The position numbers and the translations under genes are program-made. This document shows, one piece after another, positions 4,301 through 15,529 of a stretch of 47,679 bases of DNA. Positions within the stretch are counted from its first letter, which is position 1, and the number at the start of each line of letters is the position of its first letter. The stretch comes from a virus. A model generated the notes under the pieces. It was not told the DNA's origin. It did not search any database and was given only the letters and a program-made list of their open reading frames with translations. The stretch covers positions 1 to 47,679 of IMG/VR virus record IMGVR_UViG_3300025435_000031; one strand, 5' to 3'.

Positions 4301-4961
4301 TCAGAAGATGCTCGATGATATGCGTGAGTGGATGCGTAATTATATTAATAACACGTGCATATATCGTGTGCAACCTGGTGAACTAGAACTTCCAAGTAAA
4401 CATCCAGATTATACGTATGCATGGCAAATTTATCTACGTCGTGGTTTGTTCAATAGTAAATTCCAATCAATATTAGGTGTGTTGTTTTGGGATATGTTTC
4501 AAGCCAAATTTAAGACAGCTAAATTTCAAATTGCTGGATTGGAAACTGGTGCAACACCAATATTATCAGCAATCGTTAATGCAGCAAGTCTTTTTGATAT
4601 TGAGTGTAATGCATTCAGCATTAGAGCTGACCGCAAGAAGTATGGGTTGTTTAATAGATTTGAAGGAATTGTTGATTATAAAACACCTGTGCTAATTGTG
4701 GATGACATTAGCAACTCAAAAGATACAATCCACAAAGCACTGTTTTACTGCACAAGTGGTGGGTTGCAGGTTGTACGCGATGCTTTCACGATTATTAACA
4801 AAGATCCAACAAACATTGAACAGGACAAGTACGTTGGCAACCAACTCAACGTAAAGAGTATATTCTCGCTCAATGATTTTGACCTCATGTATAATGATTA
4901 TATTGCAAAAAATGGAAATATAAATCTTGTTGACTTTGAGCGTGAAAGAGGCGATAAATAA
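4290..4961 (+). CDS. Orotate-phosphoribosyltransferase-like PRTase
   Basis: A 223-residue type I phosphoribosyltransferase. The PRPP-binding loop is visible at residues 134-146 (VLIVDDISNSKDT), preceded by GLETGATP at 83-90 and SIRADRKKYG at 110-119, the layout seen in orotate phosphoribosyltransferase (PyrE). The first 70 residues are extra helices. The family joins a base to PRPP; the substrate here is not proven, and pyrimidine salvage for phage DNA synthesis is an inference. The start at 4290 has GGAGAAG at 4280-4286 and overlaps the preceding gene. The stop codon lies inside the promoter motif of the tmRNA that follows. Confidence 0.7.
   Translation: MEIDQKMLDDMREWMRNYINNTCIYRVQPGELELPSKHPDYTYAWQIYLRRGLFNSKFQSILGVLFWDMFQAKFKTAKFQIAGLETGATPILSAIVNAASLFDIECNAFSIRADRKKYGLFNRFEGIVDYKTPVLIVDDISNSKDTIHKALFYCTSGGLQVVRDAFTIINKDPTNIEQDKYVGNQLNVKSIFSLNDFDLMYNDYIAKNGNINLVDFERERGDK
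4930..4960 (+). promoter_or_regulatory. Promoter for the tmRNA, with overlapping late-type motif
   Basis: TTGACT at 4930-4935, a 17-bp spacer and GATAAA at 4953-4958 give a sigma70-like promoter with the same TGTTGACT context as the other promoters. The -10 region also reads GATAAATA (4953-4960), the late-promoter form used elsewhere in this genome. The expected transcription start is near 4965. Confidence 0.5.
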
Positions 4962-4964
4962 TAT

Positions 4965-5185
4965 TGCTGAGGTTGCTGACGTAAGTAGAATAGATGAACT
5001 GGACACGAGGGCAGTACTCGTCCGGTCCACCATTTATGGGCCGGAAATAGGATCGACAGGCATAGTAAAGACTGTACCGAGACCAAAAGCAAACGTATTA
5101 GATGCAAACGATAATGCACCTATCTCTCATGCACTAGCTGCCTGAGAATGAGCTCGGTGGGGAGCTTGGAAACAGAATCCCCACC
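4965..5185 (+). ncRNA. ssrA: Circularly permuted two-piece tmRNA
   Basis: The acceptor piece comes first and ends in CCGGTCC-A-CCA (5022-5032). Five bases later the coding piece starts with GGGCCGG (5038-5044). These pair as a 7-bp acceptor stem with a G-U at the third pair, the alanine identity position. A perfect 5-bp T stem (ACGAG 5005-5009 / CTCGT 5017-5021) with a 7-nt loop abuts the acceptor strand exactly as in tRNA-like domains. The 5' piece continues with AGGATCGACAGGC, matching the tmRNA GGATTCGAC(A/G)GG element, and then the tag frame at 5104-5145. Acceptor-before-tag order is the permuted type of alphaproteobacteria. The function is rescue of stalled ribosomes with SmpB. The T loop (GGCAGTA) departs from TTCRA. 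I could not resolve the pseudoknots or P2 by eye, and the outer ends are estimates. Confidence 0.85.
5104..5145 (+). other. tmRNA tag reading frame (ANDNAPISHALAA)
   Basis: Starting at a GCA resume codon, the frame encodes ANDNAPISHALAA and then TGA. ANDN at the start and ALAA at the end are the hallmarks of alphaproteobacterial proteolysis tags recognised by ClpXP. The frame is continuous upstream to 4927, but that part is RNA structure, not protein. Confidence 0.85.
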
Positions 5186-5197
5186 ACATTTTTTTTT
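5156..5197 (+). terminator. Rho-independent terminator after the tmRNA
   Basis: GGTGGGG (5156-5162) pairs with CCCCACC (5179-5185) as a 7-bp GC-rich stem, followed by ACA and nine T residues (5189-5197). It ends the tmRNA transcript and probably sets the 3' end of the coding piece before trimming. Confidence 0.8.
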
Positions 5198-5206
5198 GAG
5201 GAACAT

Positions 5207-5284
5207 ATGGTTTTAATATCTACCACATTCTTTGTAATTGTAGGTTATTTGATATTATCAGAAATCATGGAACAGGTCCCTTAG
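5207..5284 (+). CDS. Possible 25-aa membrane peptide
   Basis: A very short frame after the terminator: MVLISTTFFVIVGYLILSEI followed by five more residues. Almost the whole peptide is one hydrophobic segment, and GAGGA at 5198-5202 provides a ribosome binding site 4 nt before the ATG. The stop codon falls in the tRNA-like fragment. No family is recognised, and a chance ORF is possible. Confidence 0.35.
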   Translation: MVLISTTFFVIVGYLILSEIMEQVP

Positions 5285-5295
5285 CTCAGCTGGAT
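5275..5295 (+). pseudogene. tRNA 5' fragment (acceptor strand plus half D-arm)
   Basis: GGTCCCT-TA-GCTC-AGCTGGAT is the first 21 bases of a normal tRNA (7-nt acceptor strand, U8-A9, D stem, D loop with GG). The tRNA sequence stops at 5295, exactly where TATAAATA begins. No matching acceptor 3' strand (AGGGACC) occurs nearby. It is best read as a tRNA gene truncated when the downstream endonuclease gene arrived. Confidence 0.65.
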
Positions 5296-5303
5296 TATAA
5301 ATA
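5296..5303 (+). promoter_or_regulatory. T4-type late promoter TATAAATA
   Basis: An exact match to the T4 late consensus TATAAATA. The start site would fall about 6 nt beyond the motif, near 5309, which is immediately downstream of the 5' arm of the hairpin at 5302-5332. Confidence 0.6.
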
Positions 5304-5332
5304 GACCTACGGACATGTATTAAGGAGGTCTA
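5302..5332 (+). promoter_or_regulatory. RBS-sequestering hairpin ahead of the endonuclease gene
   Basis: TAGACCT (5302-5308) and AGGTCTA (5326-5332) form a perfect 7-bp inverted repeat with a 17-nt loop. The 3' arm contains half of the very strong Shine-Dalgarno AAGGAGGT (5322-5329). Read-through transcripts would fold and hide the site. Transcripts from the late promoter at 5296-5303 would lack the 5' arm. T4 I-TevI and a few other T4 genes are known to be controlled this way. Confidence 0.6.
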
Positions 5333-5333
5333 C

Positions 5334-5750
5334 ATGAATACAAGAGATATAGGTAAATTTGGTGAGCTTGTTGCTATGAAAGAATTATCAAAAATTGGAT
5401 ACGATATTTTACTACCAACATCAGATCATTTACCATTTGATTTTGTTGCTTATAAAAATTCAATGCTATTTAAAATTCAAGTAAAAACAAGAAGTAAGAC
5501 AAACGGTGTTTTATCTTTCAAACTATCAAAAAACCCATATCCAAGATACAACGAAACAGTTCAAGGGCGTAAATATAGTGAACAAGATTTTGATTGGTTG
5601 TTGCTTGTTGACATAGAAACTGAATCAGTTTATAAGTTTACATGGGAAGATTTGATTGATAAAGAATCAATTAATCTAAGAATAGAAAAAACAAAAAACA
5701 ATCAAACAAAAGGCGTTTGGATAGCAGAAAATTATGCGCTCGTAGCTTAA
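5334..5750 (+). CDS. PD-(D/E)XK homing-endonuclease-like protein (I-Ssp6803I type)
   Basis: A 138-residue small nuclease. The N-terminus reads GKFGELVAMKEL with Glu11, then LPFDFVA with Asp36, and FKIQVKTRS with Gln49 and Lys51. This E...D...QxK pattern fits the restriction-fold homing endonuclease I-Ssp6803I (PDDEXK_5 family), which lives in a tRNA-fMet intron. Length is also close to that family. It lies between a truncated tRNA and an intact tRNA-Arg, and its last five codons and stop are inside the tRNA-Arg gene. There is no sign of intron structure, so it appears to be a free-standing mobile gene. Expression is probably late only (hairpin and TATAAATA upstream). A DUF4365-like nuclease of another role is the main alternative. 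Confidence 0.7.
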   Translation: MNTRDIGKFGELVAMKELSKIGYDILLPTSDHLPFDFVAYKNSMLFKIQVKTRSKTNGVLSFKLSKNPYPRYNETVQGRKYSEQDFDWLLLVDIETESVYKFTWEDLIDKESINLRIEKTKNNQTKGVWIAENYALVA

Positions 5751-5812
5751 CAGGAAAAAGCAACGGTCTTCTAAACCGTAGAGTACAGGTTCGAGTCCTG
5801 TCGAGCGCGCCA
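5736..5812 (+). tRNA. tRNA-Arg (UCU anticodon)
   Basis: Acceptor GCGCTCG (5736-5742) pairs with CGAGCGC (5802-5808), then G and encoded CCA (5810-5812). The D stem is GCTT/AAGC. The anticodon stem ACGGT/ACCGT holds the loop CTTCTAA with anticodon TCT, reading AGA. The T arm is ACAGG-TTCGAGT-CCTGT. The 5' 15 nt overlap the 3' end of the endonuclease gene. Confidence 0.93.
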
Positions 5813-5837: not shown

Positions 5838-6014
5838 ATGCAGCAAGCTGTTAACTATTCCGTCGATATGCTCAAACGTGCAGCTTTCACAGATGAACTT
5901 AACAAACTTCGATTACAGCAGCAAAGTCCTCCTAACCCACAAAAAGATAATACCGCAATAATAATTTATCTTGAAGAACGACTAAAAGAGATTGCCAATT
6001 TACATGGTAAGTGA
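5838..6014 (+). CDS. Hypothetical protein, 58 aa
   Basis: A short frame starting MQQAVNYSVDMLKRAAF, with a strong AGGAGG Shine-Dalgarno at 5827-5832, five bases before the ATG. The peptide is helical with a Gln/Pro/Asn linker in the middle (QQQSPPNPQK) and a second charged helix at the end. No family is recognised. It fills the space between the two tRNA genes. Confidence 0.6.
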   Translation: MQQAVNYSVDMLKRAAFTDELNKLRLQQQSPPNPQKDNTAIIIYLEERLKEIANLHGK

Positions 6015-13473: not shown

Positions 13474-14069
13474 TATTGTAGTGCCTTTACAGAATCGTTG
13501 TGTACTCTAGACTTTGTAGCCTTTTTGAATCTTTCAGTTGGAAGCATAAGTGCAGTGTCCCAATTCTTTGGTTGCACGTTTAAAAACTGTCCCTGAACAT
13601 TACTCCACAAATATCTCTTCAAGCATGGGCTAAAATTACTTAACTGTGATGCACTCTTCAATAGTTTATAAGATATCTTTAATCTAGTGTTGTCGTCGTA
13701 TTTATCGTCACTAGCAATACTATAAAGACCATTCATTAACTGCGCTCTATAATACGTAGGAAGGTAGTGGAGATTGATTCCTAAGAATCCATTTGGTTGA
13801 AAATCAACTAAAAACATTAAAGGAAAAATATCATAGTAAGGAAGTATGTCCTTCATCTTTGGATCATAGAAGAACATAAACATCTGGCCAATATTCTTAA
13901 TTGTTAATGATGGTACAACGTTTTGCTTATCGTTCATTAGACGATTTGTATTAACACTTGCAACTTGACTTGCAGCATCTCTATACCAATCACGAGCGTC
14001 TTGCGTAGAGTTGGGTGTGATACCCTCAGAAGTTCCTCTATCAGATATTTGTTGAAATATATAAGCCAT
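13473..14069 (-). CDS. Conserved T4-like virion protein next to gp4; gp2-like DNA end protector (tentative)
   Basis: A 198-residue protein starting MAYIFQQISDRG; the start at 14069 overlaps the gp4 stop (TAATG), and upstream codons in the frame overlap gp4. The core IGQMFMFFYDPKMKDILPYYDIFPLM, NGFLGINLHYLPTYYRAQLM and CLKRYLWSNVQGQFLNV is a family conserved in T4-like marine phages. In T4, gene 2 lies next to gene 4 and its product caps DNA ends against RecBCD. The position suggests that role, but I cannot confirm sequence similarity to T4 gp2. Confidence 0.55.
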   Translation of the reverse strand: MAYIFQQISDRGTSEGITPNSTQDARDWYRDAASQVASVNTNRLMNDKQNVVPSLTIKNIGQMFMFFYDPKMKDILPYYDIFPLMFLVDFQPNGFLGINLHYLPTYYRAQLMNGLYSIASDDKYDDNTRLKISYKLLKSASQLSNFSPCLKRYLWSNVQGQFLNVQPKNWDTALMLPTERFKKATKSRVHNDSVKALQ

Positions 14070-14506
14070 TAAAAGGTGATACCTAATTCTTTTTCTGTAA
14101 ACAATTGAAACTTCCAATTGCGATCAGCGCAATATTCACGCGCTGCTTTCCATTTAGCACTATTTATTCCCCAGGTACAAACCTCTCTAATAAACTTCTT
14201 GCTCTTTGGCTGCATCTTAGGTTCAACGGTTTGTGCATAAGGCTTGACCTCTATCATTATAGTTTCAGTCAACCCATTAGGCAACCCTTTCTTTACAACA
14301 AAGTCTGGAAAATAGCGATGTATCTTACCATCGATAGGTGATCTGTAAGGTATAATGACTTCTTCTGAGCTCCACTGAATTACATCTGGATGGTCGTCAA
14401 GATGCGACATCAATTTACACTCCCACAAAGAGCGATAAATAATATTTGTGGGATTACCTTTATATTTTTGTGGATTCTTGGGTCTAAAGTAACCTTTGTA
14501 TGCCAT
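14069..14506 (-). CDS. 4: gp4-like head completion nuclease
   Basis: A 145-residue protein close to T4 gp4 (150 aa). It has the TnsA-like/restriction-fold pattern YRSLWECKLMSHLDDHP (about 26-42), HRYFPDFVV (63-71) with the PD Asp, and MIEVKP (84-89) giving the ExK. gp4 acts late in head assembly, before tail joining. It is the first gene of the leftward operon, with a TATAAATA promoter 28 bp upstream of its start, and is coupled to the next gene. Confidence 0.88.
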   Translation of the reverse strand: MAYKGYFRPKNPQKYKGNPTNIIYRSLWECKLMSHLDDHPDVIQWSSEEVIIPYRSPIDGKIHRYFPDFVVKKGLPNGLTETIMIEVKPYAQTVEPKMQPKSKKFIREVCTWGINSAKWKAAREYCADRNWKFQLFTEKELGITF

Positions 14507-14516
14507 TGTGCTCAGC

Positions 14517-14524
14517 GATAAATA
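14517..14524 (+). promoter_or_regulatory. Late promoter GATAAATA (rightward, gp48 operon)
   Basis: GATAAATAC lies 28 bp before the gp48 ATG. It faces the leftward TATAAATA at 14534-14541; both fit in a 45-bp gap. Confidence 0.55.
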
Positions 14525-14533
14525 CTAAAATAA

Positions 14534-14541
14534 TATTTATA
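14534..14541 (-). promoter_or_regulatory. Late promoter TATAAATA (leftward, gp4 operon)
   Basis: On the minus strand the sequence is an exact TATAAATA, 28 bp before the gp4 ATG at 14506. It overlaps the untranslated leader of the divergent gp48 mRNA, so the two transcripts share about 10 bp. Confidence 0.6.
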
Positions 14542-14551
14542 AGGAAGTTAG

Positions 14552-15529
14552 ATGTCAATTGCCGGCAAGATAGTTCAGGGCGCTCAATTCATAAACAGAA
14601 ATGCTGCAGCTGCAAAAGCAATTGCTGGTGGAGCTCTTGCTCTTGGTGGCGCTGCTATCATTGGGCAAGCATTCTTTAGAACACCAGAAGCACAGAAAAG
14701 ATCAAAAGATCAAGGAGACTTAATGTTTCCAAGCGATCTAATTGATCCGTCAGCTAATCGTAACTTCTATATGACAATCCAATTTACTGAGTATCAAAGA
14801 CGTTCTATTTTCAATCAACCATTTCTCAAAGCTGTTGGTGGTATAAGATTACCAATTCCTAACAATCTAACCGATACACAAAACATATCATACGATCCAA
14901 CTGGTTCAGATCCTACACAAGGTGCTGCAATGGAAGCTGGGTTAGCAGGTAGAAATGGTGCTGGAAGTAGTGGAAACTTTGCAGGATCATTAGCATCTGC
15001 TGCGGGTGCTGCTCTTGGTGGTAAGGCTGTAGATACTGCAACAAAGCTAGCTCAGGGTGTTGGTATTGATACAGCACAAGCACTTCAACTTGGTGGCCTA
15101 GCACAAAATCCGTTCTTAACCGTATTGTTCAAATCACCATCGTTTAAAAAACATCAATTCTCATGGAAGTTAGCACCAACTTCACCACAAGAATCAGATA
15201 CTGTAAGACAAATCATTAATACATTCAGATCTAACATACTTCCAGCAATGGCACCTAATGCTGGTGGTACTTTGCTTACATATCCTAATATGTGTCAAAT
15301 ATCACTTTACCCAGACGATAGTTTTCTGTACAGATTCAAGCCATGTGTTGTTGAGAGTATGTCAGTTAATTTTGCATCGTCTGGTGCTCCTTCGTTCTTT
15401 AAAAATACAAATGCACCAACAGAAGTAACACTGACAATTGATTTGCTTGAGATTGAATACTGGCTCAAGGAAGATGTTGAAGGAACTGATTTGAGATCTG
15501 GTGGAAGCTTCCTTGGAGGATTATTCTAA
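14552..15529 (+). CDS. 48: gp48-like baseplate tail tube cap
   Basis: A 325-residue protein (T4 gp48 364 aa). The N-terminus has a hydrophobic Ala/Gly helix (AAAAKAIAGGALALGGAAII), then a tube-type domain split by a Gly/Ala-rich insert (about 125-185), followed by the diagnostic NPFLTVLFKSPSFKKHQFSWK and SPQESDTVRQIINTF and the closing EVTLTIDLLEIEYW. gp48 tops the hub and docks gp54 and the tube. It opens the rightward baseplate operon; AAGGAAG at 14541-14547 is the ribosome binding site. Its stop overlaps the gp53 start. Confidence 0.85.
   Translation: MSIAGKIVQGAQFINRNAAAAKAIAGGALALGGAAIIGQAFFRTPEAQKRSKDQGDLMFPSDLIDPSANRNFYMTIQFTEYQRRSIFNQPFLKAVGGIRLPIPNNLTDTQNISYDPTGSDPTQGAAMEAGLAGRNGAGSSGNFAGSLASAAGAALGGKAVDTATKLAQGVGIDTAQALQLGGLAQNPFLTVLFKSPSFKKHQFSWKLAPTSPQESDTVRQIINTFRSNILPAMAPNAGGTLLTYPNMCQISLYPDDSFLYRFKPCVVESMSVNFASSGAPSFFKNTNAPTEVTLTIDLLEIEYWLKEDVEGTDLRSGGSFLGGLF

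Follow-up and report, generated by a model that had tools for sequence, protein, structure and literature searches.

A PD-(D/E)XK homing endonuclease gene probably expressed from the remains of a tRNA-Arg gene in a T4-like phage

Introduction

Several phage homing endonuclease genes combine a late promoter with an RNA structure that hides the ribosome-binding site. In a review (PMC2988022), this arrangement is described for I-TevI, I-TevII, I-TevIII, T4 segB and Aeh1 mobE, the promoters of I-TevII and I-TevIII being middle or late ones. According to the same review, I-TevI also represses its own synthesis through an operator that resembles its homing site and overlaps its late promoter, and segB lies between the tRNA-Arg and tRNA-Ile genes of the T4 tRNA cluster.

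We analysed a stretch of viral DNA of 47,679 nucleotides (IMG/VR record IMGVR_UViG_3300025435_000031), hereafter called the window, in which a nuclease gene is preceded by a promoter-like motif and an inverted repeat. The original prediction held that the promoter is placed so that late transcripts escape a hairpin blocking the ribosome-binding site, by the logic of I-TevI in a nuclease of another fold. All features given below lie on the plus strand unless stated otherwise.

Results

The nuclease gene (5334..5750) encodes 138 amino acids and belongs to the homing endonucleases of the PDDEXK_5, or I-Ssp6803I, family. The predicted PD-(D/E)XK fold was supported by Pfam PF11645 (PDDEXK_5), which matched the product with 88.8 bits (E 4.4e-25) for a curated cut-off of 26.1 bits, and by PDB entry 2OST, the structure of I-Ssp6803I (profile E 2.8e-21; single-sequence E 1.8e-5). 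Residues D36, Q49 and K51 are invariant in 9 of 9 family members and also align to 2OST; this D...Q-x-K set presumably represents the catalytic residues. I-Ssp6803I is encoded in a group I intron of tRNA-fMet. An Rfam scan of the window detected no intron family, so that the gene does not fall into the intron-encoded class. The window-type nuclease locus is present in three copies on identical contigs, besides which the search of viral contigs found no close relative of the nuclease; a scan with the phosphoribosyltransferase returned the same contigs only.

Upstream of the gene lies a permuted two-piece tmRNA (4926..5186; Rfam RF01849, 94.6 bits, and RF04321, 92.1 bits); phage Melnitz is known to have a tmRNA of this type (PMC9004378). 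Behind the last stem comes a run of nine T (5188-5196), a terminator-like arrangement that could end upstream transcripts. GATAAATA was also observed just upstream (4953-4960). At the other end, the last 15 bases of the nuclease gene overlap an intact, divergent tRNA-Arg(TCT) (5736..5812; found by ARAGORN, Rfam 73 bits), and this tRNA is followed by a small ORF (5838-6014) whose relative likewise follows tRNA-Arg in loci L023-L026. In these loci tRNA-Arg and tRNA-Ile are about 1.8-2 kb apart, a distance suggesting that this tRNA cluster has received other insertions as well.

A tmRNA adjoining tRNA-Arg, upstream of gp32, is conserved in many relatives of this phage. Searching with the neighbouring gp32-like gene yielded 80 related loci, many of which carry a tRNA-Arg(TCT) shortly past the tmRNA, and we derived a consensus of the resident tRNA from 34 distinct tRNA-Arg genes of the relatives, many of them at this same place. 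In the window, only a 5' stub of the resident tRNA-Arg(TCT) occupies this position (5275..5295), identical to the consensus at all 21 bases (tRNA positions 1-21). A 7-base insert follows, two bases of which duplicate AT, and the similarity then resumes: 5301..5332, which hold both arms of the inverted repeat and the Shine-Dalgarno (SD) sequence, correspond to tRNA positions 20-51. In a local alignment of 5301-5330, 21 of 30 bases are identical to tRNA positions 20-49 (score 12; shuffle mean 6.0), a match reached by 0 of 1000 shuffles and, in an ungapped test, by 1 of 2000. The same stretch has no similarity to the intact downstream tRNA-Arg. The promoter motif TATAAATA is itself composed of five new bases and ATA from the tRNA D-loop. 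Since the similarity resumes past the insert, the promoter, both arms and the SD appear to lie within the body of a dead resident tRNA-Arg. These alignments show that the nuclease leader reads as a decayed copy of the resident tRNA-Arg up to about position 49-51. The original prediction had read the letters of the promoter and arms correctly and had overlooked the tRNA gene in which they stand.

The decay has been uneven, the stub being perfect and the remaining leader 70% identical, and this calls either for selection on the leader or for a separate origin of the leader. All three window-type copies being identical contigs, the formation of the junction cannot be followed in an independent allele. 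We also considered that the stub might be the 5' half of a split tRNA rejoined downstream. This was rejected: the acceptor stem of the intact tRNA-Arg pairs with itself and not with the stub, and since it differs from that of the stub, the intact tRNA-Arg is a different gene and not a rejoined half. A 25-codon membrane-like ORF (5208-5285) has its stop codon TAG inside the stub; no relative of it was found among the loci compared.

TATAAATA at 5296..5303 was read as a T4-type late promoter from the enrichment of ATAAATA before gene starts. As an exact string, TATAAATA shows no enrichment in the window (3 occurrences vs 4.65 expected). The core ATAAATA lies 12-45 nt upstream of a gene start at 10 of its 18 sites in the window (binomial 7e-14), the top value among all 7-mers, and most of the genes behind these sites are long ORFs of virion-like character. 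For T4-like cyanophages, the same motif, NATAAATA, is the reported late promoter (PMC2984593). Because ATAAATA is the 7-mer most concentrated 12-45 nt before gene starts, the late-promoter reading is well supported, and ATAAATA is clearly the late-promoter motif of this phage. The predicted late promoter at 5296-5303 agrees with this pattern. By T4 practice, transcription would start near 5309, about 6 bases past the TATAAATA box, and would leave out the 5' arm of the inverted repeat. Elsewhere in the window, ATAAATA occurs on both strands at 14517-14541, as back-to-back late promoters between divergent genes (14069-14506, minus strand; 14552-15529, plus strand).

The sequence elements downstream of the promoter stand exactly where the original prediction had placed them. 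The 5' arm TAGACCT (5302..5308) overlaps the end of the promoter, the 3' arm AGGTCTA lies at 5326..5332, the SD AAGGAGGT at 5322..5329 and the start codon ATG at 5334. The claim that the 3' arm covers the SD applies to AGGT, four of its eight bases; the AAGG part lies in the loop. A second hairpin, with its 5' arm CATGTA at 5314..5319 and its 3' arm at 5331-5336, would close over the AUG of late transcripts. For a stretch of 41 nt (5296-5336), a perfect 7-bp inverted repeat is mildly unusual: a repeat at least as good turned up in 68 of 2000 shuffles that kept the dinucleotide composition, in 145 of 4000 41-mers drawn at random from the window and in the leaders of 4 of 46 genes, and the fold of 5290-5400 gave a z of 0.31. 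When the tRNA was allowed to decay at random with the SD fixed, a stem of at least 7 bp touching the SD arose in 0.6% of trials, in a test designed post hoc. The tRNA consensus already allows four of the seven stem pairs, and the other three were completed by substitutions during its decay, which is suggestive, under the same post hoc test, of selection on the stem. Given the low frequency of such stems under random decay, mild selection may have acted on the stem.

The proposed switch was measured as the predicted cost of opening the region from the SD to the AUG in long upstream transcripts versus late ones, with folding energies computed without ribosomes, cotranscriptional folding or host temperature. 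For the window leader, this cost was 2.7-3.8 kcal/mol in upstream transcripts (6.2 for a 250-nt leader) versus 3.6 in the late transcript. The same procedure gave 12-14 versus 4.9 kcal/mol for T4 I-TevI and 15.6 versus 5.5 kcal/mol for T4 segB. On a common measure, the gain upon late initiation was 8.6-9.6 kcal/mol for I-TevI, 11.4-11.9 for segB and 0.8-2.0 for the window. Moreover, shuffled leaders matched the window leader in 98 of 300 cases when the context was shuffled (SD-only measure) and in 3 of 60 when the spacer was shuffled (SD-to-AUG measure), and folding at the cooler temperatures of 8-25 C did not rescue the window switch. In the predicted folds, a transcript from 5208 pairs GACCUAC with an upstream GUAGGU instead, and the late transcript forms the CATGTA/TACATG hairpin over the start codon. 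The folding thus lends no support to a strong switch of the T4 kind, the predicted gain being 0.8-2.0 against 9-12 kcal/mol in T4, with a rival upstream pairing and a hairpin on the AUG. What stood of the predicted hairpin switch is its geometry, with the 5' arm before the inferred start and the 3' arm on the ribosome-binding site; strong hiding of that site in upstream transcripts was not borne out, and in these models the stem may have a modest effect on translation. At the back-to-back promoters of 14517-14541, the predicted opening cost of the minus-strand leader falls from about 8 to 3.6 kcal/mol, a larger change than in the nuclease leader.

We then compared the locus with PDDEXK_5 homologs gathered by contig scans and alignments of family members. 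The nearest subfamily adjoins tRNA-Arg(TCT) in 8 of 8 lineages: the window, a cyanophage group that includes the cultured Synechococcus phage Sf-FR1, the Acinetobacter phage Herod, and loci L100, L101, L116, L117 and L136. For L101, the anticodon loop was read by eye as Arg(TCT), ARAGORN calling it Pyl. Homologs at a greater distance have other tRNAs as neighbours (My1, FKP10, Chester, SPTD1) or no neighbouring tRNA (L089, L090). The 3' end of the nuclease ORF falls within the 5' end of tRNA-Arg in L100 and L117, just as it does in the window. More broadly, PDDEXK_5 ORFs run into the 5' portion of the following tRNA gene (Ile, Val, Thr or Arg) and stop there in L087, L085, L110, L100 and L117, and the C-termini of these ORFs are thus encoded by tRNA genes.

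In the cyanophage homologs, TATAAATA lies within an arm of an inverted repeat, some 20 nt ahead of the ATG. A long hairpin spanning the late promoter and covering the AUG was seen in Sf-FR1 and its relatives (L085, 1920-1994; L106 and L110, 1415-1494). In the Sf-FR1-like group (L106, L110, L111), the predicted switch amounts to about 8 kcal/mol, more than in any of the spacer shuffles, and the switch logic of the original prediction may therefore hold better in these relatives than in the window. In the other cyanophage homologs except L105, it stays within the shuffle range. Read by eye, the cyanophage leaders differ in the pair flanking TCTTAT/ATAAGA, some having G-C and others C-G; since MAFFT misplaced the 3' arm in half of these leaders, covariation in the stem rests on this reading by eye. 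A search of the homolog leaders for operator-like similarity to tRNA-Arg found none, except a weak case in L106 (20 of 1000 shuffles).

Discussion

We consider it probable that a homing nuclease linked to tRNA-Arg took over the tRNA-Arg locus and that the tRNA gene residing there supplied the material for its late promoter and leader. A free-standing PDDEXK_5 nuclease gene would have entered the tRNA-Arg locus between the tmRNA and gp32 of a T4-like phage. Judging from its linkage alone, the enzyme would cut intact tRNA-Arg genes of the resident type, and repair of the break would presumably copy the nuclease gene and the divergent tRNA-Arg into the cut site. Because the repair would bring this tRNA-Arg along with the nuclease, the tRNA supply would be kept while the old copy dies. 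The 7-base insert in the dead D-loop would have completed the late promoter, so that synthesis of the nuclease would be late, with transcripts beginning near 5309. Translation of read-through transcripts would be lowered only modestly by the stem, and the timing would be set mainly by the promoter.

A true switch of the I-TevI or segB type, with the SD locked in the stem of upstream transcripts and free in late ones, is unlikely in the window. Its geometry is right, the 5' arm preceding the predicted start and the 3' arm lying on the SD, and random tRNA decay rarely yields such a stem. The cyanophage homologs also hold TATAAATA in a hairpin arm, with a large predicted switch in the Sf-FR1-like group, and the arrangement is documented for segB, I-TevI to I-TevIII and Aeh1 mobE (PMC2988022). 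However, the predicted change falls far below that of the T4 controls and is equalled by a share of the shuffled leaders on both measures; the alternative upstream pairing and the second hairpin on the AUG also weigh against such a switch, as does the terminator-like stem with its nine T between the tmRNA and the nuclease leader.

It is also conceivable, if quite unlikely, that an old, unused tRNA-Arg decayed after a second one had arrived with or next to the nuclease, and that a deletion joined the promoter of the cassette to the stub, the tRNA similarity of the leader being a coincidence. Indeed, the cyanophage and Herod nuclease genes lie just downstream of an intact tRNA-Arg(TCT), the cyanophage members carry a late promoter of their own, and a perfect stub beside a 70% identical leader resembles a sharp junction. 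Nevertheless, the leader resumes the tRNA in register after seven bases, and it does so with the resident type and not with the intact copy. That the promoter-like and hairpin-like letters arose by chance in an AT-rich leader transcribed from upstream only is very improbable: the exact TATAAATA is not enriched and the inverted repeat has a chance of about 3.5% in a shuffled leader, but ATAAATA is strongly placed upstream of genes and the cyanophage homologs keep TATAAATA at the matching place.

If the locus was taken over as we propose, the dead tRNA might have been reshaped further into a control region, the D-loop turning into the late promoter and the anticodon arm with the variable loop into the stem and SD, and the target-like remainder serving as an operator for autorepression, as in I-TevI. 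Such an operator is conceivable because the leader resembles the likely target; we found no independent support for one at the nuclease promoter, and we regard this extension as highly doubtful.

The locus would illustrate how a tRNA gene ruined by a homing nuclease can provide that nuclease with a promoter and a ribosome-binding site, while an overlapping second copy of tRNA-Arg keeps the phage supplied. It would extend the late-promoter, tRNA-linked homing genes, known from segB, to the PD-(D/E)XK fold, and it names a concrete candidate target, tRNA-Arg(TCT). Since the homolog of the cultured Synechococcus phage Sf-FR1 has a stronger predicted hairpin, the question of the switch can be addressed in that phage. 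Sf-FR1 and the cyanophage contigs L098-L115 share with the window the nuclease subfamily, the position by tRNA-Arg(TCT), TATAAATA just upstream and an inverted repeat over the promoter, whereas their upstream tRNA-Arg is intact, they lack a clear SD, and some of them have a stronger hairpin. I-Ssp6803I (2OST) is of the same family as the window nuclease, with the same putative catalytic residues; unlike it, the window gene has no detected intron, its target is probably tRNA-Arg(TCT) and its host is a T4-like phage.

In T4 I-TevI, as in the window, the late start lies past the 5' arm of the stem on the ribosome-binding site (PMC2988022), but I-TevI resides in the td group I intron, is a GIY-YIG enzyme, and has a much stronger switch and an operator resembling its homing site. 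The closest precedent is T4 segB and not I-TevI. Like the window gene, segB encodes a free-standing nuclease next to tRNA-Arg with a predicted late promoter directly upstream, and PMC2988022 describes an inverted repeat overlapping its promoter and ribosome-binding site. In contrast to the window nuclease, SegB has the GIY-YIG fold, and its stem, at about -19 kcal/mol, is far more stable and closes over the AUG; the passages of PMC2988022 considered here describe no dead-tRNA leader for segB, whereas the window appears to have one. Convergence with I-TevI across folds was already known, since GIY-YIG and HNH members exist. What the window contributes is a PD-(D/E)XK member, with a dead tRNA, the probable target, as its leader and a substitute tRNA-Arg.
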